IMG/VR virus record: IMGVR_UViG_3300011010_000325
Coordinates: 1 to 27,780 of that record
Length of the DNA stretch: 27,780 nt
Source: a virus
Direction: 5' to 3' (one strand)
The notes under the pieces were generated by a model that worked only from the letters and a program-made list of their open reading frames with translations, did no database searches and was not told the origin of the DNA. A program made the translations under genes and the position numbers. Of this stretch, positions 184 to 14,651 are shown one piece after another (the stretch's first letter is position 1; each line of letters opens with the position of its first letter).

Positions 184-1563
184 ATGCAGGAAAGTCTTGC
201 AGTTCTAGTAGTCGGCTATCAGGGTTCTACCTGCTATCAGACTTTGATTATGCCTCAGGAAACTGATGTCACTCTCTACCATAGAGAATATACAGGACAA
301 AGAGGTCGCGGGTCGGCTTGGCGCGAAATCTCCATAGGAGAGGTTCCTAACGCTGACCGATTGCAGAAGCCTATCTCCTTCTCCGTATCACAAGCCAATA
401 TCGCTCAGGCTGGTATCGGCCTTATCACTCCCGTATCCACCAAGGCCATGAGCCTATGGACAGAGGACGAACCTTGGAATAACACGACCGATTACCTGAC
501 AGTCGTTAAGATCATTCGTGACCTGCTATTAGAGGGTGACTCCTCCTTACAGGACTATGTGGCAGACGGGTCTAATGTCTCGTTGAAGCCTATCCGTAAA
601 GCCCAAAATCCCGTTCAGGTGGTATTTAATCCGACTCCTGCACCAATGGTTGAACAACCTATGAACAACCCTCCTACCTCCAACGATGTAGTGATTGCTC
701 AGGTTCCCGACAAGAAGTGGGCGAAGCAATATGTCCAACGTCGTCTACCCTCAGGGCAGACCGAGTTCGAGATATTCGACTCAGCCCTAGCAGAACGCGA
801 TAACGTGCTTATCTTTGGCCCTACTGGTTCGGGTAAGACTATGTCCGTACTGGCCTATGCCTCAGAACGAAATATGCCTTATTACAATGTGGCGAGCCAC
901 AATGGTATCGAAATCAGCCAGTTAATCGGGCAGTGGATACCTACGCCTGACGGTCACTATAAGTGGCAAGACGGTGCAGTTACTCAGATTGTGCGTAACG
1001 GCGGTGTACTGCTACTGAACGAAATTAACTTCATGCCTGAACGGTTCACCACTGCAATATTCTCACTGCTCGACGACCGACGACACCTTCTCCTTATGGG
1101 TAACAATGGTGAGATTATCCACGCACACCCTGACCTGCTAATCGTGGCAGACATGAACCCACAATATCGTGGCACACGACCAATGAACGAAGCGTTCAAA
1201 GATCGCTGGGCGCATAAGTTGGAGTTCGATTACGACCCTAAGATTGAGCGTTCACTTATTAAAAGTAAGTCTCTGCTCGACATGGCTGGTGCGTTGCGTG
1301 AGTCGTATGACAAGCGTGAGATTGCAACACCTATCTCGACCCGTTCTTTGGTGACATTCTCCAAGAATATTATTAAATTAGGTATCGAGTATGCAATTTA
1401 CTCCTTCCTTAATTCCTTTGGTGACACCAAGGAACGTAATGCGGTTCGCATGATTGTTGATAACACCTACAAGGCGAATATTGCTAGTGACTTTGGTATC
1501 GCCGTAGACATTCGTCTTAATGAGGACGAAGTCAACCCACTAGAGGAGGTATCTAATGCGTAA
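184..1563 (+). CDS. CobS/MoxR-type AAA+ ATPase
   Basis: This is a 459-aa AAA+ ATPase of the dynein-related/MoxR/CobS group. Residues 1-190 match nothing I recognise. The ATPase core has Walker A GPTGSGKT at residues 212-219 and a Walker B strand LLLNEI at 276-281. It also has a sensor-1 region with VADMNP and an arginine-finger-like stretch AFKDRW. The Walker B Asp that normally precedes the catalytic Glu is Asn279, with Glu280 retained, which is unusual. Such ATPases usually remodel a target together with a VWA-domain partner, and the next gene, overlapping by 8 bases, is exactly that. In aerobic cobalamin synthesis the equivalent pair is CobS-CobT of cobaltochelatase, and phages often carry CobS-like ATPases. 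A general MoxR chaperone role is equally possible. The ATG has a good AAAGGGG ribosome binding site. Confidence 0.85.
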   Translation: MQESLAVLVVGYQGSTCYQTLIMPQETDVTLYHREYTGQRGRGSAWREISIGEVPNADRLQKPISFSVSQANIAQAGIGLITPVSTKAMSLWTEDEPWNNTTDYLTVVKIIRDLLLEGDSSLQDYVADGSNVSLKPIRKAQNPVQVVFNPTPAPMVEQPMNNPPTSNDVVIAQVPDKKWAKQYVQRRLPSGQTEFEIFDSALAERDNVLIFGPTGSGKTMSVLAYASERNMPYYNVASHNGIEISQLIGQWIPTPDGHYKWQDGAVTQIVRNGGVLLLNEINFMPERFTTAIFSLLDDRRHLLLMGNNGEIIHAHPDLLIVADMNPQYRGTRPMNEAFKDRWAHKLEFDYDPKIERSLIKSKSLLDMAGALRESYDKREIATPISTRSLVTFSKNIIKLGIEYAIYSFLNSFGDTKERNAVRMIVDNTYKANIASDFGIAVDIRLNEDEVNPLEEVSNA

Positions 1564-3535
1564 CGAACGAGATTACGGGTTCAACCTTAATGAACATGGG
1601 GATACCTTGCGCGAGTTATTCGGTGAGGAAATCTATACTCAGTGGCAGAACGGCGACTTAGACCAAGAGTCGGTCACCAATATCACTGACGAAGTGCAAG
1701 ACCTAGTCGAGCACGAACAAAATGAGTTAGGCGCGGTCTGCATTGTTTACGGCAAGGCTGACAGAATTATTACTCGTAACTCTGCGGTAAGCGTGGTCGT
1801 TCACAAGCCAACATGGGAGGAACCTCACTTTGCGGGAATTGCAGGTTGGAGTGACGGCAAGAAAATTACGTTTAACAAAGACGTGGTAACCCTGCTCAGT
1901 GAGACAGATATTCCTGCGCTTAATGGCCTTAATTACCATGAGTTGAGTCATATCTTGTATACGCCTCGCGGTGGTTCTGAGTTCGTAAACTGGGTACAGA
2001 ATAACTCCTATGGGATAGCGTTTAATTACTTAGAGGACGCACGTATCGAGACTCTAATGACTGCTCGGTTCCCTAGCACTCGTTTATTCTTAGAGGCTAA
2101 CTTCATGCGTTACGTTGCAGTTAACGATACGAACAGTGGCGACCTATTCCTGCTAAGTCGTGGACGTAAATACGTTCCCCTATCTATTCGTCAAAAGATC
2201 GCTGACCTATTCGTTACAGAACGCGGTCTTGAAATGGCCACAGAAGTTGCAGATATTATTGACACCTATCGAACACTCGTACTGCCACGCGACTCCGCGA
2301 TTGCTAAGCCACTTATCAAGCGGTTTGCCGAGGTTGTAGGCAAGGGAAATATGGGTAATACTCCCGAGGCTGGCGAAGGTGACGGAGAAGGCGAGAATAA
2401 TGTCGGTTGCCCAAGCGACTGCACTGGTCGTGAGCCTATGAAGTTCGGTCGACCACTCGGAGTCAACGAACAGACTGCTGACTCTAACAAAGCAAAAGGC
2501 TCAGGTAAATCTGAGGAGTTGCGTGAAGTTGATAATACTAAATTGTTTCAAGGTGCAGGTGAGGGCGATAACCCGATTGAGTCTGACCTTACGGCCGAAG
2601 GGTTCATGCAACAGGACACACAAAAGACAGATCGTTCACTCGCTGACTTAATTGAGCAACGTGCTAAGGATATTCGTAGCAACGACGAGGTACGACGTGA
2701 GGTTCGTGAGTTTCGTGAAGCAGTAGCGACCAATGATGAGCACCGAAATACAGTTCGAGTTGCTCGCTATACTAATATGACACCTGCTGAAATAAATAAT
2801 CAGAGCCAACGAGAAGGCGATTACCCACTAATTGCTGAGCAGTTCGGTCGTGAGTTAGAACGCTTGGAGATTGACAATGAGCCTAACTGGGATAAGGAGA
2901 AGCCTTCGGGTCGTCTTAATGTGCAACGCACAATGAACGCTGGCCTTAATGATATTGACCGACTCTTTGACCAGTGGAGTGAGGTTGATTACGGCACTGA
3001 GATTGAGGCGGTTATCCTTCTCGATAACTCAGGCTCTATGGGTTCTCAGATTCAACGCGCCTCGGCCTCAGTGTGGGCTATCAAGCGAGGACTAGAACGT
3101 ATCCACGCTAACACGACAGTATTCAGTTTCAATAGTGGAAGCCGAGTTCTATACACAAGCGAGGATAAGACTGCTTACGACACAATTCGTACAGTTCACG
3201 CTGGCGGTACGACTAACCCAGTGAGGGCGTTAGAGGAGTCTAAGCAGATATTTAATCTGACTAACCGAGCCACTAAACTCTTGTTTATTATTACTGACGG
3301 CGGTTTCGATTACGCAGAACCTTGCGATAATTTAATTAAGCAGTTCAACGAGGACGGCGTTATCACTAGCACTATCTTTCTTGGATATATTCCTGATAGT
3401 AGTTACGTGTGGGAAGCCGACAACATTGAAGGGTATCGACACTACGCTAAGCACTTTAACGTAATCTCTGACCCGTCTGACCTAGTACGAGTAGCAACAG
3501 ATATTGTTATCGAGCAGTTAGGAGTTCACCAGTGA
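1556..3535 (+). CDS. Metallopeptidase-like plus VWA-domain protein (CobT-like partner)
   Basis: This 659-aa protein has two recognisable parts. Near the N-terminus His128-Glu-Leu-Ser-His132 forms an HExxH zinc motif. It is followed about 28-33 residues later by NYLEDARIE (Glu160 or Glu165 as a possible third ligand), as in the putative-metallopeptidase domain linked to VWA-like proteins (DUF2201 type). Glycine- and acid-rich low-complexity sequence lies around residues 270-290. The C-terminal third is a VWA domain with the MIDAS motif Asp490-Asn-Ser-Gly-Ser494, followed by a conserved TGGTTNP-like threonine segment and an IITDGG strand. The ATG overlaps the ATPase gene by 8 bases behind a GAGGAGG ribosome binding site, so the two are probably translated together and act as a complex. 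In family terms this is a CobT-like or MoxR-partner protein. Whether the peptidase site is active cannot be told from sequence. Confidence 0.8.
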   Translation: MRNERDYGFNLNEHGDTLRELFGEEIYTQWQNGDLDQESVTNITDEVQDLVEHEQNELGAVCIVYGKADRIITRNSAVSVVVHKPTWEEPHFAGIAGWSDGKKITFNKDVVTLLSETDIPALNGLNYHELSHILYTPRGGSEFVNWVQNNSYGIAFNYLEDARIETLMTARFPSTRLFLEANFMRYVAVNDTNSGDLFLLSRGRKYVPLSIRQKIADLFVTERGLEMATEVADIIDTYRTLVLPRDSAIAKPLIKRFAEVVGKGNMGNTPEAGEGDGEGENNVGCPSDCTGREPMKFGRPLGVNEQTADSNKAKGSGKSEELREVDNTKLFQGAGEGDNPIESDLTAEGFMQQDTQKTDRSLADLIEQRAKDIRSNDEVRREVREFREAVATNDEHRNTVRVARYTNMTPAEINNQSQREGDYPLIAEQFGRELERLEIDNEPNWDKEKPSGRLNVQRTMNAGLNDIDRLFDQWSEVDYGTEIEAVILLDNSGSMGSQIQRASASVWAIKRGLERIHANTTVFSFNSGSRVLYTSEDKTAYDTIRTVHAGGTTNPVRALEESKQIFNLTNRATKLLFIITDGGFDYAEPCDNLIKQFNEDGVITSTIFLGYIPDSSYVWEADNIEGYRHYAKHFNVISDPSDLVRVATDIVIEQLGVHQ

Positions 3536-3732
3536 CAAGATACAAAGCAACAATTCACCAACATATTATTATGGACGTGTGGGTTGAGGCCCCTGACCGA
3601 GAGTCTGCATGGCAGTTAGCCAACGATCAAGTCAACGACCGAGAGGAACGAGGCGTGTGGATTGAGGACGTGTGGGCAGGTTGGACAGAGGTAGGTTCTA
3701 TCTATGATGAGGAAGGTAACGAAGTTGAGTAA
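3532..3732 (+). CDS. Small hypothetical protein (66 aa)
   Basis: The gene starts with GTG in a GTGA overlap with the stop of the VWA gene and has an AGGAG ribosome binding site, so it is translationally coupled to it. The protein has beta strands followed by a helix: a Tyr-rich start, then WVEAP-D-RESAWQLAND, with an acidic C-terminus. This strand-strand-helix pattern recurs in the next gene and recalls small DpnD/PcfM-like phage proteins. I cannot assign a function. Confidence 0.65.
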   Translation: MTRYKATIHQHIIMDVWVEAPDRESAWQLANDQVNDREERGVWIEDVWAGWTEVGSIYDEEGNEVE

Positions 3733-3880
3733 ATATGGAGTTGAAGTACGAGTTGAGTTATGGACAACGTTCGACGCGGACAGTGAACACGACGCTCTCG
3801 AACAAGCGAACGAGTGGGTCACGTTGGAGTACGGTTCCCTATCAGATAAAGCAGACTATACAGTTACGGAGTTAAAATAA
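3725..3880 (+). CDS. Small hypothetical protein (51 aa), probable paralogue of the previous gene
   Basis: This short frame starts with TTG, overlaps the previous gene by 8 bases and has AGGAAGG about 8 bases upstream. It encodes a protein beginning M-SKYGVEVRVELW, followed by a DADSEHDALEQANEWV helix. It shares with its neighbour the order Tyr, beta strands, then an A-x-D-x-x-x-A-x-x-x-AN-x-x-V helix, which suggests a tandem duplication. There is no in-frame ATG, so TTG is the only sensible start. Function unknown. Confidence 0.6.
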   Translation: MSKYGVEVRVELWTTFDADSEHDALEQANEWVTLEYGSLSDKADYTVTELK

Positions 3881-3881
3881 T

Positions 3882-4175
3882 ATGGAACATCACTTTGTTG
3901 TTAAGTTTAATGCAGAGACCCGAGAGTGGTCTTGGGACGTAGACACCGAGAACGCGGTGTTCACCGAGGGAACAATTCTCTTAGGTGAGCAGTGGGTTCG
4001 CTCAGGTAACATCATTGAGTCACACCCACACATTTACGGATTAGACGAGGTATGCAGTAGGGTTCTTACTCACGCCTTAGGTATTATGAACGACACGATC
4101 AAAGAGAACGAGTTGTTTAAGCCTATTCCACCAATGGACAAGAAGTACGTTACGGAAATGGACGGCGTAAGTTAA
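3882..4175 (+). CDS. Hypothetical protein (97 aa)
   Basis: The ATG lies one base after the previous stop, with GGAG about 10 bases upstream. The N-terminal half is strand-rich and acidic (FNAETREWSWDVDTENAVF), and the middle holds a helix around residues 53-72. No cysteine cluster, membrane segment or known motif is visible. It sits in a run of overlapping small genes typical of phage early regions and shares a 1-base overlap with the next gene. Confidence 0.65.
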   Translation: MEHHFVVKFNAETREWSWDVDTENAVFTEGTILLGEQWVRSGNIIESHPHIYGLDEVCSRVLTHALGIMNDTIKENELFKPIPPMDKKYVTEMDGVS

Positions 4176-4372
4176 TGGAGAAAGTATTGTTAGACCTAGT
4201 AACGAAAGAGTATAACTACGCTAAAGGTATCTGTAATGACTTTGACAGTAAAGGCATGGAGGATAGTGCTGAGGCTTGGGGGCTTGTAGTTGCTCGCCTC
4301 GGTAGAGTGCTAGAGGATTATGAGTCAAAAGTTTGTGTTGAAACCCTACTAACGAGAGAGATATACCTATGA
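4175..4372 (+). CDS. Hypothetical helical protein (65 aa)
   Basis: The start is in a TAATG overlap with the previous gene. The product is predicted to be mainly two amphipathic helices (residues 1-30 and 32-60), acidic overall, with no recognised motif. A purine-rich GAGAGAG sequence near its 3' end acts as ribosome binding site for the following gene. Function unknown. Confidence 0.65.
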   Translation: MEKVLLDLVTKEYNYAKGICNDFDSKGMEDSAEAWGLVVARLGRVLEDYESKVCVETLLTREIYL

Positions 4373-4749
4373 CCCTGAACCCTGACGACTTTGTTGCTAC
4401 AGGTACACCACGCTTTAATGGTGTGGTAGACGCCTATGCAAAAGGCGATAAACTCGCCATAATGCTGATTGAGAACAGTCTAAATCTAGTTGCTGACCTT
4501 GGCTACCTTCGCTCAGGCGAATACGACGGCGAAGATTATCTTATGATTAGAGCAGAATTAGACGAGTACGTTGATGCCATGGAGGCGTTCTTTACGCACT
4601 TTAATATTAAAGCCCTGCTTCAAGAGCACGTAGAGGAACATCTATCCGAACAAACGTTCGAAAACAAGCAGTGCGGTTGCGGTAATTGCACCTGCGGTGA
4701 TGGCGGTAGTGACGGAATAGTTATTCAGTTCCCTGGAAAGGACTCGTAA
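4369..4749 (+). CDS. Hypothetical protein with CxCxxCxC tail (126 aa)
   Basis: The start is in an ATGA overlap with the preceding gene and is preceded by CGAGAGAG. Residues 1-98 are largely helical and acidic. Near the C-terminus there is a compact cysteine cluster Cys102-x-Cys104-x2-Cys107-x-Cys109, embedded in glycine, then a short GIVIQFP strand. Such a dense cluster could bind a metal ion or an iron-sulphur centre. No family is recognised. Confidence 0.65.
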   Translation: MTLNPDDFVATGTPRFNGVVDAYAKGDKLAIMLIENSLNLVADLGYLRSGEYDGEDYLMIRAELDEYVDAMEAFFTHFNIKALLQEHVEEHLSEQTFENKQCGCGNCTCGDGGSDGIVIQFPGKDS

Positions 4750-4752
4750 GCC

Positions 4753-4923
4753 ATGGAAAACACCAAAGATAATAATAAAAACAAGCAATTAAATAGTATG
4801 TGGCTTATACAAACTATTATTCAAAAGCCAATAGATAAAAAAACTAAAACGTGGCAGCATGACTCTGCCGTAGAAAAACTTCAAGAGATAAGAGAGCAGA
4901 TAAAATATGACAGACTCAATTAG
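4753..4923 (+). CDS. Small lysine/asparagine-rich protein (56 aa)
   Basis: This 56-aa frame begins 3 bases after the previous stop. The product is Asn- and Lys-rich at its N-terminus (MENTKDNNKNKQLNS), followed by a hydrophobic IQTIIQK stretch and an amphipathic C-terminal helix (SAVEKLQEIREQI). It overlaps the next gene by 17 bases. There is no strong ribosome binding site, so translation may depend on the upstream gene. Function unknown. Confidence 0.5.
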   Translation: MENTKDNNKNKQLNSMWLIQTIIQKPIDKKTKTWQHDSAVEKLQEIREQIKYDRLN

Positions 4924-5044
4924 TTGGGGTGAGTTAGCAGACCTAACTCACAAAACACAGGTAGAGCGGTTTAATTTCTGCATGTGTGAGGACAACGAGG
5001 GGCAGGAAAACCCTTACTCAGATTGTCCGACGGGAGAAGCGTGA
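4907..5044 (+). CDS. Small cysteine-containing protein (45 aa)
   Basis: This 45-aa acidic frame contains FNFCMCEDNEGQENP and a further Cys near its end (SDCPTG). The three cysteines could be part of a metal site. It overlaps the frame before it by 17 bases, and its stop codon forms a GTGA overlap with the following HicA-like gene. That coupling supports it being translated. No ribosome binding site is obvious. Confidence 0.5.
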   Translation: MTDSISWGELADLTHKTQVERFNFCMCEDNEGQENPYSDCPTGEA

Positions 5045-5256
5045 GCAGTGACAGACGCTTGTCTCCTGACAGAGATATGAGAGCACTCATCAAGAAAGCC
5101 TTGCTACAAGGTTGGACAGTTGAGAAGCGCAACAACAACCACCTAAAGTGGACATCTCCTACAGGGTTCGTATACTATTCATCATCAACGCCTAGTGACT
5201 TCCGAGCAATTAGAAAGATTTCTCATGGGTTACGACGCGAAGGTCTAAAACTATAA
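5041..5256 (+). CDS. HicA-like (YcfA-type) small RNA-binding/toxin-fold protein
   Basis: The product is 71 aa from the GTG at 5041. I prefer this start because it overlaps the previous stop as GTGA and has GGGAG just upstream; a TTG at 5023 would add six residues. The sequence follows the HicA/double-stranded-RNA-binding-like pattern: a helix (MRALIKKALLQGWTV), a central N-N-H-L-K-W strand carrying the conserved His, a hydrophobic strand ending in STPSD, then a basic helix (FRAIRKISHGLRREGL). HicA proteins are mRNA interferases paired with the antitoxin HicB. No HicB-like gene adjoins here, so this may be a stand-alone phage version acting on RNA. It could also have lost toxicity. Confidence 0.65.
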   Translation: MSSDRRLSPDRDMRALIKKALLQGWTVEKRNNNHLKWTSPTGFVYYSSSTPSDFRAIRKISHGLRREGLKL

Positions 5257-5274
5257 CTACAGAAACGGAAATAA

Positions 5275-5643
5275 ATGTCTAAAACGACAGAAGCAATTAG
5301 CCTAGAAGCGTTAACCGCTATAGGTGGAACAACGTACAACCACTCATCTCAGATGATTAAAGCCGACGATCAATACTTCTTAGGCGATGACTATGAGGAA
5401 TATTCTGCTATAGACGCACTATGCCGTTCTATTATGGAACACCCTAAAAACTTCCATGCCGTTCAAGGTAGAGAAATAATCTCCTTGTCACAGTGTTACG
5501 AGTATGGAAGTTCTTTCATTGAAGTAACTAGCAAAGATGATATGGACGACGAGCATACCTACGTAGACGAAGTTCACTATGATTACGTAGACGTAAACGT
5601 AATGGTTAACTACCCTTCTAAACTTCAAGTAACAAAGGCCTAA
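5275..5643 (+). CDS. Hypothetical acidic protein (122 aa)
   Basis: The ATG at 5275 follows a CGGAA ribosome-binding-like sequence after an 18-base gap. The protein is acidic with a strand-rich C-terminal half (residues 85-115) full of Asp, Tyr and Val (TYVDEVHYDYVDVNVMVNY). No motif or membrane segment is recognised. It has no coupling overlap with its neighbours, unlike most genes in this block. Confidence 0.65.
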   Translation: MSKTTEAISLEALTAIGGTTYNHSSQMIKADDQYFLGDDYEEYSAIDALCRSIMEHPKNFHAVQGREIISLSQCYEYGSSFIEVTSKDDMDDEHTYVDEVHYDYVDVNVMVNYPSKLQVTKA

Positions 5644-5670
5644 AGCAGTAACGAGAGAGAGAGGAATATT

Positions 5671-5850
5671 ATGAAAGAATGTGAAGTTAAAGATTGTACG
5701 TCAACTGAGTTAGTTTACTCAGGTACAGACGCCTTCTGTCTTGGTGTGATAACAGAGAAAATCTGTTATAACTGCGCCAATATCTATGCTAAAGTCAAGG
5801 AAATAGTAAGACCCCAACGAGAGGAACACAATGCACAAAGTAACATTTAA
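5671..5850 (+). CDS. Small zinc-ribbon-like protein (59 aa)
   Basis: The gene follows a long purine tract ending in GAGAGAGAGGA, a plausible ribosome binding site. The product begins MKECEVKDCTSTELVYSG and has cysteines at 4, 9, 23, 32 and 35, the last two forming Cys-Tyr-Asn-Cys. The spacing is compatible with a small zinc-binding fold. The 3' end overlaps the next gene by 20 bases. Function unknown. Confidence 0.6.
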   Translation: MKECEVKDCTSTELVYSGTDAFCLGVITEKICYNCANIYAKVKEIVRPQREEHNAQSNI

Positions 5851-6106
5851 CGCACCTATCGAGAACGATAAGAAGCGTCACTATAAGTTTGCAATTATTA
5901 AGAACCAAGAAAAAGGTGGATCTTGGCTTGCCCATTACACAGTAACTAACCGAGAAGGCTCACTCGTTGAGACAGGTGCAGAAGCGTTCTCTAGTTCAGC
6001 ACCTGCAAAGCGTTGGTCTGCAACACTGGTTGGTAGAAGCCGTTTAACTTGGGACGTATCTGACGACAAGAAGGTTCTTGGCGCAGTTCACGACGTAAAA
6101 CTATGA
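5831..6106 (+). CDS. Hypothetical basic protein (91 aa)
   Basis: The ATG has a good ACGAGAGGA ribosome binding site. The product is basic and looks like a small beta-rich fold: HYKFAIIKNQ, SWLAHYTVTN, then RWSATLVGRSRLTWDV. It may bind nucleic acid, but no family is recognised. Its stop overlaps the next start as ATGA. Confidence 0.65.
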   Translation: MHKVTFNAPIENDKKRHYKFAIIKNQEKGGSWLAHYTVTNREGSLVETGAEAFSSSAPAKRWSATLVGRSRLTWDVSDDKKVLGAVHDVKL

Positions 6107-6195
6107 GCGTCAACTTCCCACAACCTGACTGGACTCCCAGCAGTGACCCAACAATTATCCCGTACGACGACGATGATGAGGACGACGATGAGTAA
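6103..6195 (+). CDS. Very small acidic protein (30 aa)
   Basis: An ATGA-coupled frame encodes MSVNFPQPDWTPSSDPTIIP followed by a tail of nine acidic residues and a Tyr. Its end overlaps the next start by 8 bases. Its only support is this double overlap with flanking genes and the good packing it gives. It could be a real microprotein or a translational bridge. Confidence 0.4.
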   Translation: MSVNFPQPDWTPSSDPTIIPYDDDDEDDDE

Positions 6196-6415
6196 ATATG
6201 ATGAGCAGTTCTCCAATGAAGCGCGTATGAACAACCCGCGTAAGGGAGAGAATTACTACGCTGACAAAAGCAGTAAAACTCGTAAAAAGATTACTGTAGT
6301 TCTTTACAAGAACGAGATACACCTTATGGGTGCACCAGAAGGCTTTGAAGTAGTAGTTCTTAACTTAGACAAAGGTATGCTGATAGAAAATGACGACGAC
6401 ACTTACGACGAGTGA
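6188..6415 (+). CDS. Hypothetical protein (75 aa)
   Basis: I choose the ATG at 6188, which overlaps the previous frame by 8 bases and has TGAGG upstream. The longer reading from GTG at 6143 would add a low-complexity Thr-rich N-terminus. The product has a polar, basic first half and a beta hairpin (KKITVVLYKNEIHLMG, then FEVVVLNLDKGM), ending in an acidic tail. No family is recognised. Confidence 0.6.
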   Translation: MSKYDEQFSNEARMNNPRKGENYYADKSSKTRKKITVVLYKNEIHLMGAPEGFEVVVLNLDKGMLIENDDDTYDE

Positions 6416-6746
6416 ATACGACTATTGCGTATTTGATGAAATAGGCGAGCCAATGACCTTTGCGTCTTGGCTTGCCTATTCTTCTAGGGGGTACAAAAGA
6501 GAGAGCGTTACAAACGGATTTACTATTATCACTAAATGGACAGGCATTGACATGCCTGAGCATGAACGCCTCACAAGTAACTTCTCTTTCTCACGCTGGA
6601 ACCCTAATAAAATACCTATGATTTATGAGGGTGTTGTGTATGACCAAGATATGCTGCCAATTCACCGGGCCCGCTATGCAACGAGAGAGAAAGCCTACGA
6701 GAGCCACTCTTTATTATTAAAGGTGTACTCAGAGGATAAAGAATAG
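6390..6746 (+). CDS. Hypothetical protein (118 aa), last gene of the plus-strand block
   Basis: The ATG overlaps the previous gene by 26 bases and lacks a clear ribosome binding site. The product is rich in aromatic residues (Tyr, Phe, Trp) and may be a small alpha/beta domain; no motif is recognised. Its 3' end overlaps by 18 bases a minus-strand microprotein gene (6729-6902), so the two transcription blocks collide here without a visible terminator. A perfect 7-bp inverted repeat, CAGGCAT-TGAC-ATGCCTG, lies inside it at 6541-6558. Confidence 0.65.
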   Translation: MTTTLTTSEYDYCVFDEIGEPMTFASWLAYSSRGYKRESVTNGFTIITKWTGIDMPEHERLTSNFSFSRWNPNKIPMIYEGVVYDQDMLPIHRARYATREKAYESHSLLLKVYSEDKE

Positions 6747-6902
6747 TAAAACAGCAGCTAGCGGCAATATGAGAGAGAACGCTAGACCCACTTGAAAGTA
6801 AAATAAACTCTTATTTGCGGCAGGTTTATTATCTGAGTGCTTAGAAAAGCCGTCGTTAATAAAATACGGACCTCCATGTTGTGAAAAATGATTTCTACCC
6901 AT
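6729..6902 (-). CDS. Single-pass tail-anchored membrane microprotein (57 aa)
   Basis: Reading the gap downstream of nrdJ gives a 57-aa protein starting MGRNHFSQHGG. The first 37 residues are polar, with His, Lys and Asn. The last 20 (residues 38-57, starting VGLAFSLILPLAAVLLFF) form a clean hydrophobic transmembrane helix that ends at the C-terminus. It starts 9 bases after the nrdJ stop, so it is the last gene of the minus-strand block. The ribosome binding site is poor. A continuous hydrophobic helix is unlikely by chance, and the frame fills the gap exactly. A small membrane role such as inner-membrane stress or superinfection control is conceivable, but nothing shows it. Confidence 0.55.
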   Translation of the reverse strand: MGRNHFSQHGGPYFINDGFSKHSDNKPAANKSLFYFQVGLAFSLILPLAAVLLFFIL

Positions 6903-6911
6903 GTAAAGAGT

Positions 6912-8945
6912 TTACTGGTTTGTGAAAGACTTAACCTCACAAGCGTCAGTTTCACAGTACTTTTCACCAATAGCATCTGAGGCCATACCTGCGTAGACAT
7001 CAGTAAAGTCGATTGGAAGTAACTTTTCTGCGTATGACTCGTACTCTTCTTCTGTAATCTGTGTGTAAGGCATCTGCGGATACACGTGGTTACCCATAGG
7101 TAAGAACGAAGCAGTCTTTAACTGCCCGTCAAACATGTGAAGCACAGTTCCCACTGCGTCCTTTTCTTTCTCTGCATCAAAAGAAATAGTCACTGAGACT
7201 GAGTTATCAGACCAGTAACGTTGAGCCGTAGCCGCGAGAGAGGTCTTTTCATAAATAGAAACATCTTTCTCAGAGCGAAGTGCTTTAGATTTAATAGGAA
7301 AGAACACCACTGAGGTAGAGTCTGGAGACTCTGCTGCAGGTTCTACTCGATAGCCAGAGAACTTAAAGAGAGGAAGCATAGGGTCTTCATTTGCAAAACG
7401 GATAGAACGCAAGAAGTACTTACCGCCTGGAGTCCAATGAACTCCTGGGGACTCACCTGCCAAGATTGAGACTGTGCCTGAAGGCTTAACAGTTGTCATC
7501 TTGATTGACTCACGGATACCAAGCCACTCTGAGTATGACTTGTCGTATGACTGGATAGTGCCATACCCCTCGTCCATCCACTTTCGTAACTCTGGAAGGC
7601 CGTTAATATCCGCAAAGTTGGCAATACCTGACATTGATGTTCCAATGCGACGATTGCGTTGCATGATCGCGTTAGTCTCTTCCCAGTGTGTTGGAAGCAG
7701 GGTGACAGTCTTGGCGTATAAGTAGGCAAACTTTAAAGTTCGCTTGTAGTCATCTAGTGAGTCGTGGCGGTTGAGATAGGTCTCTACCAACGTACAGCAC
7801 TCAAAAGATTCCAGGGATTGCTCAGCGCAGGGGTTGTACCCTGAGGCTCGCCAGTCTTTATTATTAATAGGGTCTGCTAGACGCCCGTACTGCTTAGTAA
7901 CATCCATCCACAAAACTCCAGGCTCCCCGTTCAAGGCGATGCCTTCTACGATTGAGGAGAGGTCTGCCCCTACTGCTACCGCTACAGAGTTGTTGGACAT
8001 CCAAGCCCAGCCAGGTTTCCCAGGGTCATAGGAGTTACGCTCAGGGAATTTCTCAGCGTTCTTTAGGTTCAAAAAGTCTTCATCATCTAAGCGTCCAATG
8101 AGTAGTTCTGCTGAACGTCGAACGTTACCGCTTACAACACAAACACCGATTAAGTTACCAATGTCTGCTACGTCAAGGCGGGTTAACTTGCCCCCTGCTC
8201 GGCCCTTAAAAATATTATGTACATAATTATGTAAACGTTCTAGTGGTTCGTGACCGGCGGCAGTTCCACCAAAGGTTTTAATTGGCGTACCTGCTGGTCG
8301 GATTTGTGTGTAGTCAAAAACAGGCCTCTTCGAATCTGGCTTAAGGTAGGCATTGATGACGGCGGAAGTTGACTCAACCCAGCCTTCTCGGGTGTCGGGG
8401 ATAACGATTGGGTCGGTGTCTGGTTGTGGTTCATATATTGTAAAGTCCTTGTCTGCGCCCTTTCCATCGAAGCCTACGCCCACGCCAAGCATGGAGGCTT
8501 CCATAAGGAAGGCAAATGGTTTAGCGGGATTAATCTTGGTCATTGACTCAGTTGATACAAATGAACAGTTTTGTAAAGCGGCTGAGTTCTTCTGCTCGTT
8601 TACTAGGGGTGTTCCCATTACCCACAGACCTCTACCTGGAGGTGTCCACTTCAAGTTCCACAAACGATCAAACGCTTCCTTTGCGGAAGCCTGAGCCTTG
8701 GCATCATTCCAAGGTAGTCGGTTTGATTTAGCGTGGTCTTTTTGTAGGGAGTACATGCCGTTGATAACACGCTCACATACATCTACCCAAGTCTCCTTGG
8801 TTCCATCCTCTTTTAATCGGGAGTATGTTCGAAGGAAGGTAATCTCCCCAACGCTATTTCCAGCCGCATCTTTGTAACCCCAAGGCACTTTCTTTCCTGT
8901 GTAGCCTGAGATGAACTCATCTGCTAGATGAAACGATAACGTCAT
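6912..8945 (-). CDS. nrdJ: Class II (B12-dependent) ribonucleoside-triphosphate reductase
   Basis: This 677-aa enzyme reduces ribonucleoside triphosphates to deoxyribonucleotides using adenosylcobalamin, as in the monomeric Lactobacillus leichmannii type. The active-site motif NPCAEQ gives the thiyl-radical Cys373 and Glu375. The redox pair is Cys127 (in LQNCSFVST) with Cys384, which lies 11 residues after the thiyl Cys as in the family. The C-terminus ends with a Cys664-x4-Cys669 pair, the swinging cysteines re-reduced by thioredoxin-like proteins. All catalytic residues are present, so it should be active. The ATG has GGGAG upstream. It sits behind a 148-base gap containing a terminator-like hairpin, unusual in this compact genome. 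It supplies dNTPs for the PolA-based replication module and makes the phage depend on host B12. Confidence 0.93.
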   Translation of the reverse strand: MTLSFHLADEFISGYTGKKVPWGYKDAAGNSVGEITFLRTYSRLKEDGTKETWVDVCERVINGMYSLQKDHAKSNRLPWNDAKAQASAKEAFDRLWNLKWTPPGRGLWVMGTPLVNEQKNSAALQNCSFVSTESMTKINPAKPFAFLMEASMLGVGVGFDGKGADKDFTIYEPQPDTDPIVIPDTREGWVESTSAVINAYLKPDSKRPVFDYTQIRPAGTPIKTFGGTAAGHEPLERLHNYVHNIFKGRAGGKLTRLDVADIGNLIGVCVVSGNVRRSAELLIGRLDDEDFLNLKNAEKFPERNSYDPGKPGWAWMSNNSVAVAVGADLSSIVEGIALNGEPGVLWMDVTKQYGRLADPINNKDWRASGYNPCAEQSLESFECCTLVETYLNRHDSLDDYKRTLKFAYLYAKTVTLLPTHWEETNAIMQRNRRIGTSMSGIANFADINGLPELRKWMDEGYGTIQSYDKSYSEWLGIRESIKMTTVKPSGTVSILAGESPGVHWTPGGKYFLRSIRFANEDPMLPLFKFSGYRVEPAAESPDSTSVVFFPIKSKALRSEKDVSIYEKTSLAATAQRYWSDNSVSVTISFDAEKEKDAVGTVLHMFDGQLKTASFLPMGNHVYPQMPYTQITEEEYESYAEKLLPIDFTDVYAGMASDAIGEKYCETDACEVKSFTNQ

Positions 8946-8963
8946 TTATTTCTCCCTTTGATA

Positions 8964-8994
8964 ATAGAAAATCCCGCTTGTGTGGCAGCGGGAT
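8964..8994 (-). terminator. Terminator-like hairpin in the nrdJ leader (possible attenuator)
   Basis: On the minus strand an 8-bp perfect stem (ATCCCGCT/AGCGGGAT, 8987-8994 with 8971-8978) encloses an 8-base loop and is followed by the U-rich run TTTCTATT. It lies only about 25 bases before the nrdJ start, too close to leave room for a separate promoter downstream. Read-through is therefore needed for nrdJ expression, which suggests attenuation. Confidence 0.55.
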
Positions 8995-9039
8995 GCCTAA
9001 TGTTACTGTATGGCAACCTTACCTCGAAGCACTAGCGGT

Positions 9040-9053
9040 GTCCAATTTTGGAC
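9040..9053. promoter_or_regulatory. Inverted repeat in the nrdJ upstream region
   Basis: GTCCAA-TT-TTGGAC is a perfect 6-bp inverted repeat with a 2-base spacer in the intergenic region before nrdJ. It could be an operator or a small RNA hairpin. Nothing else ties a regulator to it. Confidence 0.35.
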
Positions 9054-9093
9054 GTGTGCCAATTCTTACTTTTTTTGTGCTCTTATATACTAG

Positions 9094-10563
9094 TTATTCT
9101 TCAATAGATTGTTGAATAATCTTGGTAGTTTGCTCTTCACTAAGCCCGTTATTAGACAGTTCGTTTAGGTCTTTTGCTCGCTCTCCAAAGATGCTAGATA
9201 AAACTCCAGCACCTCCTTGGCGCTCTACTGTCATACGAATAAACTCTCGTGAATCGTCTAATTCCTTAGTTGTTTTAATTAATTTAAACAGTCGGTCAAT
9301 CTCCTGCGAAACGTTAGGATCAGCGTATCCGCCGTTCATTTCTTCTGCAAAACGCATAAAAGCCACTCGTTGGCCCTGCATTTCAATGATTGCATTAATC
9401 AAACTCTTGAGTTGTTCTTTAGTCTTAACCTCTACTGGTAACTTAAACGCACACACTGAATCAGGTTTAAAGGCAGGGCAATTACTGGCTACAAAGCAGG
9501 TATTACACACACGAAGTGAAGTTGATTGTGACTGCACATGAGTGGTGTCTTGGATGACTCCATGCTCGTCTACATTGGTCTTTAGGTCGTATCCAAAGAC
9601 GGGTAAATTGCCCATTTCTTCTGGTTTTCGCGGCTCAAGTTTCCGCATCTCTACCCCCTTGTTATCAACATTTGCTAGGGTAGTTTCCGCGTTATCGACA
9701 TCATCTAAATCATCGTTGTTAGTATATAAGTTGTCATCATCTGAACTATTGTGGTTAATCATATTTAACTTTGTCTCCAATTGTTCGTATGACCAAACTG
9801 CTAAACGACACACCTCTTGTGGGTCATCTTCCATAATCTTATTAAAATCTAGCCCCGCCTTTTCATATACCTGACGGTATCGCTGGCGGGCTTGTTCTTT
9901 CATCTTCTTGGGGTAACGTACCAGACGTGTGCCATCCCAGATAATCGTCTCCCCGTGGGTCATAGGCGATAGCCAAGCCAAGGTAGCCGCTGATTCAAAT
10001 AATATAGACCTAAGGTTATCTGGTTTAGCGCAAGCTATGGCATGGAACCTGGTGCCGTGTGTACGCTGAAGGTTGCGGGTTTCTGAAGCTAGCCAGGTAA
10101 CGTTGTCTACATTTTCCCCTGTAATTCCAATGTCTAAATATTTAGACGCTAGGTCTTGTAAACCTTTACGGTCAGTAGTTACGTCCCAAATCGGCAAAAA
10201 CTTAGCGGGAGGAACCTGTGACCAGCATGTCTTTCTTTGACTTTCAATAAACTCCTGGGACAAGCTGGGGTGGGTCAACTCGCTGAACATATTAATACGG
10301 TCAATATTATTGGCGACAAACTCTTCATAATCAGCGGCAAACTGCTCCAGCTCTGGCCGGCTCAGCTGCTGGGTTTTAGGGATTCCTGCGTGAACAAATA
10401 TTTTAGCGTCGTCATTAAAATAATTTGATAGCAGATATGCCTTGGTTTTAGGCAATCCGCGGCGGGTTAGCCGCCAGTAGCTCACGCCAACGTCTACAGC
10501 TCCGGTTGTAGCTAGCAGAACCCTGTTACTAGGAACATCTGCCCCTAGGTATATTATTTTCAA
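9094..10563 (-). CDS. Conserved actinophage protein: possible TGT-like barrel fused to a four-cysteine domain
   Basis: This 489-aa protein starts with TTG in a TTGA overlap with the upstream gene. Residues 1-265 recall a tRNA-guanine-transglycosylase/DpdA-like TIM barrel, with RFHAIACAKPDNL followed by SAATLAWLSPMTHGE, but the match is from memory and weak. Where TGTs have the nucleophile Asp in a D-S-G strand, this protein reads IFVHAGI, so the Asp appears to be replaced. Residues 272-303 are an acidic Asn/Asp-rich linker. The C-terminal region has Cys353-x2-Cys356-x5-Cys362-x8-Cys371, then long helices (EMQGQRVAFMRFAEEMNGGYADPN and onward), a pattern I associate with uncharacterised actinophage proteins. 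The cysteines probably bind zinc or an Fe-S cluster. Base exchange in DNA or RNA is only a hypothesis. Confidence 0.5.
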   Translation of the reverse strand: MKIIYLGADVPSNRVLLATTGAVDVGVSYWRLTRRGLPKTKAYLLSNYFNDDAKIFVHAGIPKTQQLSRPELEQFAADYEEFVANNIDRINMFSELTHPSLSQEFIESQRKTCWSQVPPAKFLPIWDVTTDRKGLQDLASKYLDIGITGENVDNVTWLASETRNLQRTHGTRFHAIACAKPDNLRSILFESAATLAWLSPMTHGETIIWDGTRLVRYPKKMKEQARQRYRQVYEKAGLDFNKIMEDDPQEVCRLAVWSYEQLETKLNMINHNSSDDDNLYTNNDDLDDVDNAETTLANVDNKGVEMRKLEPRKPEEMGNLPVFGYDLKTNVDEHGVIQDTTHVQSQSTSLRVCNTCFVASNCPAFKPDSVCAFKLPVEVKTKEQLKSLINAIIEMQGQRVAFMRFAEEMNGGYADPNVSQEIDRLFKLIKTTKELDDSREFIRMTVERQGGAGVLSSIFGERAKDLNELSNNGLSEEQTTKIIQQSIEE

Positions 10564-11015
10564 ATGCGTGGGTCTTCCGCGAACATCTCCTGCTGCTTGT
10601 CAATCTCAGCTTGAATGTCGTCCCAGCTTTTACGGCCATTTCTATTATCTGGCCGTGATGCTGGGTCTATGTACTCTGGGTCTAATAATAAAAGGGTGCG
10701 AAATCCGCGCTCCAGTAATTCTTTAGCTGATTCAACATTGCCAGTCATTACCATCTCTAATTTACCTTGGGAACGCACCCACTCAGCCTGACTTACTTCT
10801 AATATCTCGCTAGAAACAGGTACCCGTCCATCAACTAAATCATCAAATGCTTTTAAGTTATGCTGACGCATCCAGGTCTCGCACTCAGCCCTATCATCGC
10901 AGGCTATAAATATTTTTTGTGTTTCTTTTAGAGCGCGGTAAAGCACAAGGCTCTCACGAATAGGTACTTTGCGTTTATTCCTGAGTACGTTATCGACGTA
11001 CATAAGTATTGCCAC
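10560..11015 (-). CDS. HAD-like phage protein lacking the nucleophile Asp
   Basis: The gene starts with GTG behind a GGAG site and encodes 151 aa. The N-terminal strand ILMYVDNVLRN aligns with the HAD motif I pattern DVDGVLR. In that alignment the first Asp, the nucleophile, is Tyr6, and the second (acid/base) Asp is Asp8. Later segments fit small phage HAD-like proteins: a substitution strand KIFIACDD, a GFRTLLLLDPEYIDPASRPD motif, and a W-x-x-I-x-x-x-I helix. If the alignment is right, phosphatase activity through the usual phospho-Asp is lost. It is coupled to the following large protein by a 4-base overlap, which suggests they act together. Confidence 0.5.
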   Translation of the reverse strand: MAILMYVDNVLRNKRKVPIRESLVLYRALKETQKIFIACDDRAECETWMRQHNLKAFDDLVDGRVPVSSEILEVSQAEWVRSQGKLEMVMTGNVESAKELLERGFRTLLLLDPEYIDPASRPDNRNGRKSWDDIQAEIDKQQEMFAEDPRI

Positions 11016-11028
11016 GATTAGTGCTCCG

Positions 11029-11961
11029 TTACTGGTTTTTAAGTACTGCCCTACGTATTAGTACGTCAGTGCTGGGCAACTCTACACCATACGTCTCTTC
11101 ATTATGTATCTTCTGCGCTGAATCAGACAAGTCTTTTAACTTCTTTAACCCTGATACAACACCTGAATCTTTATTAGCCTGCCATCTGTAATTAGCAAAG
11201 TCTAGGTAACCTTCTCCAGACTCACTGAACGCAGCACGACGTCCGTGATGAATGCTTTCATATAATGCTGAGGCTTGTGATGCTGCCAATATTATTTCTG
11301 TTTGCGCGTTTAATCTTAAAGGTGCGTTCTGAGCAACTTGCATTTTATTTAACCCCTGTGTGTAACGGTTAAATATTTCAAACGCCATTGCACGGTCGCG
11401 CTCTACTCTAAGGTCCCAGTCTTTTCTATGCTCTGCTGTTTCCATATTTGGTTTTACTGTCCAGTCATCATCTGTAACAGAATAGGCTGCGTATGGTTTA
11501 ATATTTAAAATATTTGTTTGAACATTTACATAAAACGTTAGCTCGAATGCGTTTAAAAAGTTGCTTGTATCTTTTTGTAGTTCTTCTCTAAACCCATCGT
11601 TTAGGGTTGAAGCAATCTCTTGGTTACTGAACCCGCGGTAATTAGTATTAGCAGCCCTAAACTTTTCGTATTCAACTCCAATTAAACAATCTAAATCGCC
11701 AGGATCTCTGGCCGCGGCCCATTGAAAAGATACTCCGGACCCAGCTAACCAAACGTGGGCCCAAGAATCTGACCCTTGATAATATTTATTTAAATGCCCG
11801 TATAACGCGCTTAAAACGCCTGAACGTACAGCAGCAATTAACTTATTATTACGAAACAAGCGGGGGTCTAAACCCATCTGAGCATCGCTAAAATAGGAAG
11901 TAGGGGTATGCTCCACAGTAATTGGCTCCGCTATGTTTGCTAACGCCTCTTTATAATCCAT
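11029..11961 (-). CDS. Predicted nucleotidyltransferase
   Basis: This 310-aa protein has the nucleotidyltransferase signature: a glycine-serine motif AGSGVSF at residues 73-79, then GDLDCLIGVEY with Asp89 and Asp91 as the likely metal-binding pair. A strand AFELTFYVNV around Glu140 may carry the third carboxylate. Residues 156-160 read PYAAY, a segment I associate with the actinophage nucleotidyltransferase family. The C-terminal half is helical. Such enzymes transfer nucleotides to RNA, proteins or small molecules; the target is unknown. No ribosome binding site is clear in front of the ATG. Confidence 0.7.
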   Translation of the reverse strand: MDYKEALANIAEPITVEHTPTSYFSDAQMGLDPRLFRNNKLIAAVRSGVLSALYGHLNKYYQGSDSWAHVWLAGSGVSFQWAAARDPGDLDCLIGVEYEKFRAANTNYRGFSNQEIASTLNDGFREELQKDTSNFLNAFELTFYVNVQTNILNIKPYAAYSVTDDDWTVKPNMETAEHRKDWDLRVERDRAMAFEIFNRYTQGLNKMQVAQNAPLRLNAQTEIILAASQASALYESIHHGRRAAFSESGEGYLDFANYRWQANKDSGVVSGLKKLKDLSDSAQKIHNEETYGVELPSTDVLIRRAVLKNQ

Positions 11962-11979
11962 GAGGCTATACTACTTTAC

Positions 11980-12186
11980 TTACTCGTCTTTTTCTTTGCG
12001 TTTGATTGACGGATTAACGTTGTAATGTTTTGTTTTTTCTGGAAAATCAGTGTTTAACTGGTTCATAAACCCACAAGCGCGATGCGCTTCAACAAACGAG
12101 TTTGCCCACGTAAGAAGTAAGGTATCTGCATCTTCAGCATCGGCTTGAAAAGCAGCCATGCATCCGCAAGTCATTTCTATAAACAT
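11980..12186 (-). CDS. Small hypothetical protein (68 aa) with CGC motif
   Basis: The ATG follows AGGGG. The product begins MFIEMTCGCMAAFQAD, with Cys7, Cys9 and a further Cys38 in a helix (FVEAHRACGFM), then a basic tail. It may be a small metal-binding or regulatory protein. No family is recognised, though short CGC-type proteins of this layout are frequent in actinophages. Confidence 0.6.
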   Translation of the reverse strand: MFIEMTCGCMAAFQADAEDADTLLLTWANSFVEAHRACGFMNQLNTDFPEKTKHYNVNPSIKRKEKDE

Positions 12187-12201
12187 TACTTACCCCTGTC
12201 G

Positions 12202-12507
12202 TTACAATGAATCCCTCTTGAGTAAATTCTGACGTATCGCAGCCGCTTTGCGCTGGCCTTCCTCGTCATATCTGTTGTTTATTTTACCAACAACCGCGCT
12301 AGCAATCTGGTCAGCCTTTAGGGCGTCTAAAAGCTCCTGAAAAGCGGTCTTCATGTCGTTACGTGTAGCCAAACGCTCAACCAAAAAGGCAATATCTAGG
12401 GCCTGAGTGGCGTGAAACGCCCCCTCAAAGTCTTTGTATACAATAAACGCAGTCTCTACATCTGGGACTTCAGGGACTTCAGGCGCCTCAACTACCTCAT
12501 CACTCAT
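12202..12507 (-). CDS. Hypothetical protein with acidic Pro/Val N-terminus (101 aa)
   Basis: I start it at the ATG at 12507, where TAATG overlaps the previous stop, rather than at the longer frame inside the preceding gene. The N-terminus is acidic and repetitive (EAPEVPEVPDVE). A compact alpha/beta domain follows, then a basic C-terminal helix. The central segment DMKTAFQELLDALKAD looks like an amphipathic helix. Function unknown; it may bind a partner protein through its acidic arm. Confidence 0.6.
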   Translation of the reverse strand: MSDEVVEAPEVPEVPDVETAFIVYKDFEGAFHATQALDIAFLVERLATRNDMKTAFQELLDALKADQIASAVVGKINNRYDEEGQRKAAAIRQNLLKRDSL

Positions 12508-13037
12508 TAGTACGCGCCCTTTAACTGGTTGTACTTCTTCATGTTGTAGGACTTGACTGGGCAAAAATCGCACAGATAAACCTTTGGAGCCTTAGACTCT
12601 GCCAAGCCTTCAGCTTTGCGTTCTTTAGCGGTATCAGGTTTTAATATTTTCTTATCGGATTTGTAATCTCCGCATTGACCTACCGGGCGGTTGTGCAATG
12701 CAAAACAATTCATTGCATCTTGTTGAAATGTCGACTTTGTTTCATAAAACTTTGTGCCAAAAACGTCAAGGCCAGTTGAGCCCTCTTGAATTTGCTTCAT
12801 GATGGATTCTTTAACATCGGGGCGAGCCCAATATTTTACGGGAAACTTAAACAATAACCCAACGTGGGGAGCGGGCTGTTGATGGCGTTCTACTGTAATT
12901 TGCAGTAGTACATCATCGTCTGGATGCCCGTCCCAATCAGGAAGTTCTTCCGCGGACTTACAATTACGGCAGATTAAAAGACGTATTTGTTGTTCTTTTA
13001 CTTCTTTTTGTGCAATATCTTTAATGCTATCCGCCAT
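12507..13037 (-). CDS. Conserved actinophage cysteine-rich protein (176 aa)
   Basis: The ATG has GGAG upstream. The protein carries three cysteine groups: Cys23-x2-Cys26 near the N-terminus, Cys111 and Cys122 with His115 between them (MNCFALHNRPVGQC), and Cys156-x2-Cys159 (YLCDFCPVKSY). Between the first two lies a domain with a W-x-G-H-P-D-D-D segment and a HVGLLF strand. I recognise the overall pattern as a common hypothetical protein of actinophages, probably binding zinc or an Fe-S cluster. No enzymatic role is known to me. Confidence 0.65.
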   Translation of the reverse strand: MADSIKDIAQKEVKEQQIRLLICRNCKSAEELPDWDGHPDDDVLLQITVERHQQPAPHVGLLFKFPVKYWARPDVKESIMKQIQEGSTGLDVFGTKFYETKSTFQQDAMNCFALHNRPVGQCGDYKSDKKILKPDTAKERKAEGLAESKAPKVYLCDFCPVKSYNMKKYNQLKGAY

Positions 13038-13069
13038 TTTTTGCTCCTATTGTTAGACCAAGTGGAATA

Positions 13070-13696
13070 CTATCTTTCTGCGGGCCTTGGTGCAACTGCC
13101 GCTGGGATGTCACATTTGCCTTCTGCGCAAGTAACATCTGAGGCTCTTCCTCGACCTGCTTTTTCGGCTTCTAGTTCACTTTTTGGTGTATTATACGGAA
13201 CTGAATTATTACAACCAATGCCGTTTGGGCCTTTATTAACACAAGGCATTCTTTGCCCATCTACAAACCGTACAGCGGTTCTGCGCCCAGGGGTTAAATC
13301 ACTTGGATCGCCTTCTCCGCTATCTCGTTTAATTCCTTCGGCCATTGTCCAAGCTGCAGCGCGATGCTTTTCTTTTTCTGGGCCTGGTGGTGCTTTATCA
13401 AAAGCGTCTACAACAGCACCCATACGCCTTGCAAACTCTCCACCTTCTTCAACGCGTGGGGTAGCAAACACAGCAGTTTGACGCCCATGAAGTCTATCTG
13501 CAACGCCTCTATCGTAATCTCTTTTTTCTGACTCTGCCGCTAATTCTGCTTGTCCTGGGCGAGTTCGCATTGGGTTGCGTTCTACATCGCGCAAGTCATC
13601 TTCAGTAACTCCTTCTGGTAAAGCATTTGGGTTATTAAGTGCTTTATCATCTTCGTCTGTAAAACGTCTAGTTTTTTTTACCGGTTTTTTTGCCAT
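13070..13696 (-). CDS. Polar, probably disordered protein with C-terminal cysteines (208 aa)
   Basis: The start is taken at 13696, one base after the upstream stop, giving MAKKPVKKTRRFTDEDD. The first 140 residues are charged and rich in Arg, Glu, Ala and Pro, with few hydrophobics, so probably largely disordered or loosely helical. The end has Cys152-x9-Cys162 and Cys190-x4-Cys195, a likely zinc site. It is one of a run of such genes between 12.2 and 18.1 kb. Function unknown; a virion-associated or DNA-binding role is speculation. Confidence 0.6.
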   Translation of the reverse strand: MAKKPVKKTRRFTDEDDKALNNPNALPEGVTEDDLRDVERNPMRTRPGQAELAAESEKRDYDRGVADRLHGRQTAVFATPRVEEGGEFARRMGAVVDAFDKAPPGPEKEKHRAAAWTMAEGIKRDSGEGDPSDLTPGRRTAVRFVDGQRMPCVNKGPNGIGCNNSVPYNTPKSELEAEKAGRGRASDVTCAEGKCDIPAAVAPRPAER

Positions 13697-13697
13697 A

Positions 13698-14027
13698 TTA
13701 ATTACGCCCCGGATTAGGAGGTACAACTCGTCCAAAGCCAGAGCCCTTTGGAATTACTTTTACACTGCCTGTTTCATACGGTATGTTTCTTGCCCACGAA
13801 GCATCATTTCCTGCGTACCACTCGTCAGCTTCGCGTGCAGTGCGTTCAGCTTTTACAGCCTCGTGAACACGACCTAGTGCGGCAAGCTCGTTAGGACTTC
13901 CTGGCCCTACTGAACGCTTAGCATCACGTGCACGGTCTGGTGCGGTACCTGGGACAGGTGGAGTTCCTGAAGCGCGACGTGCTTGAACGTCTGCAAGTTC
14001 TGCTTTATCTGCGTCTGTAAATGCCAT
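13698..14027 (-). CDS. Hypothetical polar protein (109 aa)
   Basis: The ATG has a good TGAGG ribosome binding site and lies 10 bases after the previous stop. The product contains a helical N-terminal segment (FTDADKAELADVQARRAS), a Pro/Gly-rich stretch, another helix, and a C-terminus rich in Gly, Val and Pro (KGSGFGRVVPPNPGRN). It has no cysteines or membrane segment and no recognised family. It belongs to the same cassette of disordered small proteins. Confidence 0.6.
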   Translation of the reverse strand: MAFTDADKAELADVQARRASGTPPVPGTAPDRARDAKRSVGPGSPNELAALGRVHEAVKAERTAREADEWYAGNDASWARNIPYETGSVKVIPKGSGFGRVVPPNPGRN

Positions 14028-14037
14028 TTTAATTACC

Positions 14038-14211
14038 TCAATCTACCTGGTTAGTTCCAATAAAACCATGACCACCGGCTGGTCGTGGGTACTTCTTTGC
14101 AACATCTTCACGTGCTTTAGCAACTGCTTCGGGTGTTTTTAAACCTTGTTTTTTATTTTCATAAGTTTGACCTTTGAACGCAGGTTTAAATTGTTCTGTT
14201 TTTGGTTTCAT
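14038..14211 (-). CDS. Small basic protein (57 aa)
   Basis: This 57-aa frame fills the gap between two neighbours. It starts in a TAATG overlap with the upstream gene. Its product begins MKPKTEQFKPAFKGQTYENK, continues with a helix (PEAVAKAREDVAKKY), and ends PRPAGGHGFIGTNQVD. It is strongly basic and probably flexible. The coupling overlap and the lack of any other frame make it a likely gene. Confidence 0.6.
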   Translation of the reverse strand: MKPKTEQFKPAFKGQTYENKKQGLKTPEAVAKAREDVAKKYPRPAGGHGFIGTNQVD

Positions 14212-14420
14212 TAGTTACCTAATGGGTTTACCTTTGCAGATTCTTCTGAATTAATAAAACCGTAGTTCATATATGGATGTAGACCAGCGCGGTTCTTGCT
14301 AGTTAACTGGTCTCCTTGTCCTGGAGCTACAGTTGTATTAGGACGACGCTTACGATACTTGCCGTCTGTTGCGCCTTCTAACATATCTGCGTTCTCTGAA
14401 CGCGCTTTTCTGACGGTCAT
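14211..14420 (-). CDS. Small basic, probably disordered protein (69 aa)
   Basis: The start overlaps the previous stop as ATGA. The product is rich in Arg, Lys, Asn and Gly with a KYRKRRPNTT basic patch, then an aromatic stretch HPYMNYGFINSEESAK. No motif is recognised. Its stop overlaps the next ATG (TAATG), so it is part of a translationally coupled chain. Confidence 0.6.
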   Translation of the reverse strand: MTVRKARSENADMLEGATDGKYRKRRPNTTVAPGQGDQLTSKNRAGLHPYMNYGFINSEESAKVNPLGN

Positions 14421-14647: not shown

Positions 14648-14651
14648 TTGT

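Follow-up and report, generated by a model that had tools for sequence, protein, structure and literature searches.

Do the two overlapping genes near one end of this virus fragment encode cobaltochelatase subunits, or a remodelling machine of another kind? Lists of viral auxiliary B12 genes often include 'cobS' and 'cobT', and a published paper calls it unsettled whether cyanophage cobS acts as the cellular gene does (PMC9983427). For the 'viral cobST' found in cyanophages and in tailed viruses of archaea and bacteria, a B12 role has been proposed (Liu et al. 2021, PMC8651126), in which the two subunits would recruit host CobN and raise B12 for the phage NrdJ. The preliminary description of the locus found such a role attractive in view of the NrdJ gene nearby, and took the HExxH motif of the second protein as a pointer to a MoxR-VWA complex linked to a protease. 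Our analysis makes it probable that the pair is a MoxR-type remodelling machine, carried by viruses and equipped with a metallopeptidase of its own, and not CobST. It belongs to the already known MoxR-vWA-metallopeptidase or 'viral cobST' type, and a remodelling and peptidase function fits it better than its usual label.

The stretch analysed (the window) is the complete IMG/VR record, a linear virus fragment of 27,780 bases with 44% G+C. The ATPase gene (184..1563, plus strand; 459 aa) was assigned from AAA_5, phrog_249 and the structural model. Its partner (1556..3535, plus strand; 659 aa), with a zincin-like domain, a linker, a finger and a VWA domain, was assigned from VWA_2, phrog_459, phrog_1576 and the model. 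The 8-base overlap of the two genes noted earlier is exact to the base (ATGCGTAA, 1556..1563), and a strong Shine-Dalgarno sequence for the second gene (AGAGGAGGT, 1542..1550, plus strand) lies within the 3' end of the ATPase gene. Small ORFs of no assigned function surround the pair. The opposite-strand neighbour at 6912..8945 is, as first described, NrdJ, a true class II, adenosylcobalamin-dependent RTPR (TIGR02505 361.6 bits against a cut-off of 340; phrog_367 2e-140) that stands outside the complex. The window also holds a gene for a WhiB transcription factor (20817-21137; PF02467, 61 bits), so that an actinobacterial host is likely. The protein encoded at 9094-10563 matches phrog_887, 'queuine tRNA-ribosyltransferase' (1e-51), has no Pfam match, and could be part of a deazaguanine DNA-modification pathway.

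The ATPase is a MoxR-class motor of the helix-2-insert clade, nearest to CbbQ/NorQ. It matches AAA_5 above the cut-off (E 4e-21) and phrog_249 at 5e-47. Its AAA module (residues 175-440) holds the Walker A motif GPTGSGKT (residues 212-219; 817..840, plus strand), with G212, G215 and K218 invariant in 50 sequences, and the Walker B region LLLNEINFM (1009..1035, plus strand), with an invariant E280. The AlphaFold model (pLDDT 89.7) has a predicted fold closest to CbbQ2 (Z 24.1; 251 residues aligned, 28% identity) and NorQ (Z 23.2), followed by Mdn1 (Z 16). When solved structures were ranked by phmmer, multi-module midasins preceded CbbQ/NorQ (E 3e-22 to 2e-19), and CobS reached E 3e-4. A tree built from 32 AAA modules puts the window clade near NorQ and other actinophage ATPases; true CobS groups with the ATPases of a Rhizobium phage, a phage-plasmid and integrative/conjugative elements (ICEs). 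Constraining the window clade to CobS was rejected (p-AU 0.0002), whereas constraining it to the one NorQ in the tree was not (p 0.16). The CobS-specific models TIGR01650 and CobS_N gave no match to the window at E<=1; among the relatives, TIGR01650 matched weakly in 23 of 52 sequences (best 1e-6). On the models and the tree we rejected CobS as the identity of the ATPase, and both count against a cobaltochelatase. The N-terminal domain (residues 1-140) is lineage-specific. These first ~140 residues (184-603) form a confidently predicted domain without a Pfam match, which only part of the family has; other relatives have ATPases of ~290 aa without it.

The C-terminal half of the partner points the same way. 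It matches VWA_2 (E 2e-7, 32 bits, cut-off 27), and the model of the whole protein (pLDDT 84) predicts a helical N-terminal domain and a VWA domain with a finger, joined by a partly disordered linker. The first-ranked Foldseek match, over residues ~404-652, is the NorD VWA domain with its finger (E 4e-8), and the MIDAS domain of Rea1 matches the VWA fold with Z 20.9. The finger motif SGRLNVQRT (residues 451-460; 2906..2935, plus strand) precedes the VWA domain, lies in the NorD match and has an invariant G452. The MIDAS sequence DNSGSM (residues 490-495; 3023..3040, plus strand) is completed by T553 and D581, and the DxSxS, T and D positions are 99-100% conserved in an alignment of 126 sequences. 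From the conservation of SGRLN and the NorD-like match, we propose that the predicted finger may enter the pore of the ATPase. A resemblance to CobT is also seen here, as the VWA/finger half aligns with CobT in hhalign at 92.5% and CobT_C (PF11775) matches the partner with 19.1 bits; the latter is below the cut-off of 21, and the CobT N-domain model PF06213 found no match in the partner at E<=1.

The N-terminal half carries the feature that separates the partner from CobT. The sequence HELSH (residues 128-132; 1937..1951, plus strand), a putative catalytic zinc site recognized by its conservation, lies on a predicted helix (119-135). H128, E129 and H132 are constant in 126/126 relatives, although members of this alignment were selected by requiring HxxxH; a scan seeded with the ATPase, in which the partner was ignored for selection, also found HExxH in every full-length VWA partner ORF. 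Twelve of the 659 columns never vary in the 126 sequences: H128, E129, H132, L159, R163, G452, D490, S492, S494, M495, D581 and G582. From the alignment columns and the predicted secondary structure, the third zinc ligand could be E160 (92% E, 8% D among relatives) or E165 (97%) in NYLEDARIE (residues 157-165; 2024..2050, plus strand), where R163 is also found, on a later predicted helix (153-171). This is the gluzincin order, and the Vibrio phage ICP2 deviates at the candidate third ligand. The HExxH domain is a putative zincin, with the motif placed on two predicted helices. The region of HELSH matches phrog_459 'peptidase' at 9e-5, and phrog_1576 matches the partner at 1e-8; among 57 relatives, the metallopeptidase model DUF2201_N matched one and M48 two. 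The partner was folded and searched whole, N-terminal domain included, and its list of fold matches, filled by VWA domains, holds no zincin-domain family.

HMMs, structure matches and conservation agree on the two-gene layout and on the combination of HELSH and a VWA MIDAS in one protein, and they support the MoxR-VWA reading of the preliminary description. We rejected CobT as the identity of the partner, given the outcomes with PF06213 and CobT_C and the presence of HExxH.

The same arrangement extends well beyond the close family. HExxH, then an acidic helix and a VWA domain, occur in this order in a cyanophage 'peptidase', Vibrio phage ICP2, Rhizobium phage RHEph10 and halovirus HCTV-1, and also in Gordonia phages of other clades, E. 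coli phage-plasmids, pR997 and the plasmid pVAS19. In hhalign, the N-domain aligns with the cyanophage 'peptidase' and an E. coli phage-plasmid protein at 96% each, with the SXT/R391-type element pR997 at 95% and with the Rhizobium phage at 94%. Most of the distant versions in phages, phage-plasmids and ICEs keep HExxH. In pR997 (6037-11042) and pVAS19 (7049-14860), an AAA ATPase, a DUF3150 protein and a VWA protein lie beside bet/exo; the sequence HEAAH...IEDxRIE of this VWA protein fits the motif of the phage family. In the 'CobT' of an Acinetobacter baumannii phage-plasmid (4001-5923), QEVAK replaces HExxH; the metal site has been lost naturally there, so not every member depends on cleavage.

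Three true CobT proteins (3062-4963, 2604-4427 and 2625-4481 of their loci) lack HExxH and keep the ExxR-E helix. A wider mobile-element N-domain profile aligned with the CobT N-domain in hhalign at 84-90% (reversed control, 0.3%), and direct alignment of the window-family N-domain with one CobT gave 0.4%. We regard the link to CobT as a lead, because it appears only with the wider profile. These sequences suggest that CobT may carry a dead cousin of the viral N-domain. A broader proposal, which we hold only tentatively, is that the viral, phage-plasmid and ICE 'CobST' would be one family of ATP-driven metallopeptidases acting in early takeover or DNA replication, with CobT containing a catalytically dead peptidase relative. 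Literature searches on the function of DUF3150-VWA or phage-plasmid CobST, and on CobT with a metallopeptidase, returned nothing useful.

How could such a machine work? The ATPase would form a hexamer like those of CbbQ/NorQ, and the VWA domain of the partner would plug the ring through its finger. The MIDAS metal would bind an acidic residue, either of a target or of the linker within the partner itself; hydrolysis of ATP would then rotate the VWA domain relative to the N-terminal domain, putting strain on the bound target, and the presumed zinc-binding HExxH domain would cleave this loosened target or else a regulator, viral or host. The pair would work like NorQD, CbbQO or Rea1 with a protease added. 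A mechanistic model of NorQD has been published (PMC13036017).

Initially the B12 reading seems favoured by NrdJ, which occurs in 93 of the 100 viral records with the pair, DSL-LC01 included. The co-occurrence holds in that direction and fails in the converse: of the 36 long records whose NrdJ shares 77-87% identity with that of the window, 13 have the VWA partner and 15 any phrog_249 ATPase. As most long records with a close NrdJ are without the pair, the co-occurrence seems to reflect a high base rate of NrdJ within a single virus lineage, and we rejected it as proof of a B12 link. Among phages with NrdJ, 983/1146 infect Mycobacterium or Streptomyces, neither of which is among the ten genera listed for the ATPase (<=17 records for all unlisted genera). 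NrdJ is absent from six isolated relatives carrying the pair and CobN from 50 related viral records, counts that are inexact as viral records may be fragments. CobN is also absent from E. coli, whose phage-plasmids carry a related pair. The converse test, the six relatives, the missing CobN and the E. coli phage-plasmids all weaken the B12 reading and, together with the failure of the CobS/CobT models and the separation from CobS in the tree, they speak against the cobaltochelatase role considered in the preliminary description. In spite of the similar two-gene layout, the likeness of the VWA half to CobT and the frequency of NrdJ beside the pair, we judge it quite improbable that the two proteins are cobaltochelatase subunits recruiting host CobN. 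Still less probable is a chaperone that inserts a metal or cofactor into NrdJ or another viral metalloenzyme, in which case HExxH would serve as a structural metal site. NorQD and CobST do insert metals, and NrdJ does co-occur in this lineage, but NrdJ is often found without the pair and the pair also without NrdJ. Class II RNRs are not known to need an insertion ATPase.

The genomic context bears on when the remodelling machine would act. In the examined relatives of ~95-100 kb, terminase and DNA polymerase lie on one strand and the pair on the other, and in Gordonia phages the pair is located in the replication arm. Its neighbours in unrelated elements are gp46/47 and gp45/44 in a cyanophage, primase-helicase-polymerase in ICP2, DnaE in RHEph10 and phage-plasmids, and bet/exo/RadC/primase in pR997. 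The opposite strand and these replication and recombination neighbours suggest an early, DNA-replication-related step over virion assembly. A virion-assembly chaperone or protease, as proposed for jumbo-phage pairs (Iyer et al. 2021, PMC7824862) and Acidianus two-tailed virus, has in its favour the identical architecture of the jumbo-phage pairs and the presence of ATV ORF892 among the viral fold matches. We consider it unlikely, given the replication-arm position, the strand (mildly against late assembly) and the occurrence of the family on integrative/conjugative elements, which have no virions.

The distribution of the family informs a further alternative. Well over 100 viral loci contain the pair, which in phages of Gordonia and Brevibacterium is annotated as 'AAA-ATPase' plus 'CobT-like' or hypothetical. 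A pattern search in a collection of 84,980 species returned one cellular contig, a count limited by the two short patterns used, and within the limits of that search the pair is essentially a mobile-element family. The lone match is a 5.7 kb MAG contig of an uncultured Propionibacterium, with an ATPase of the window type and a HELGH/VWA protein at 1201-5703. The start of a MobF/TrwC-like relaxase adjoins this pair, which may ride on a conjugative element as well; a plasmid search with the N-domain of the contig's protein found none. A close-relative search with the single VWA protein yielded nothing, alignments being needed to find relatives, and a nucleotide search of phages with the window gave no match. 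Of the isolated relatives, the one nearest by NrdJ is Actinomycetia phage DSL-LC01, obtained from a lake. Its NrdJ is 77% identical to that of the window and its AAA/VWA pair falls in a different clade, with Sixama and GMA2 (NrdJ and pair are at 9396-11456 and 27180-30142 of the DSL-LC01 sequence). As a special case of the favoured explanation, the machine could act against the host or its defences, as a protease whose remodelled and cleaved target is a host protein. Its occurrence in phages, phage-plasmids, conjugative plasmids and the relaxase-bearing contig fits this, as do the small unannotated ORFs around it in the window. PADLOC matched no defence or anti-defence model, only P-loop cross-matches, and an arms-race effector would not usually be conserved so widely and steadily; we find this role rather improbable.

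What is new is a sharp sequence criterion, HExxH, that divides viral 'CobT' from true CobT and makes the function of viral cobST testable. The invariant motif missing in true CobT, the CobN-less hosts and the base-rate test of NrdJ raise three separate doubts on the B12 reading.

Comparison with known systems places the window pair among several relatives. NorQ/NorD and CbbQ/CbbO share the ATPase fold (Z 23-24) and the VWA domain with a finger; unlike the window partner, the one NorD tested lacks HExxH, and its N-domain aligns in hhalign at only 8%. CobS/CobT likewise combine AAA+ and VWA proteins, with the remote N-domain kinship described above, but CobT has no HExxH and CobS forms a separate clade. 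Midasin/Rea1 shares the VWA MIDAS fold and the H2-insert AAA+ modules, and differs in being one giant polypeptide that serves ribosome maturation and has no peptidase domain. The 'viral cobST' of Liu et al. has HExxH, VWA and an AAA+ partner, and its cyanophage, Rhizobium phage and phage-plasmid members are kin in the N-domain, whereas in the tree of ATPases the window pair branches elsewhere. Closest in architecture are the jumbo-phage pairs of Iyer et al., in which an AAA+ MoxR ATPase adjoins a vWA protein with an N-terminal metallopeptidase domain; the window family differs from them in residing in ~85-105 kb actinobacterial phages, outside the published jumbo group, and in the lineage-specific N-terminal domain of its ATPase.
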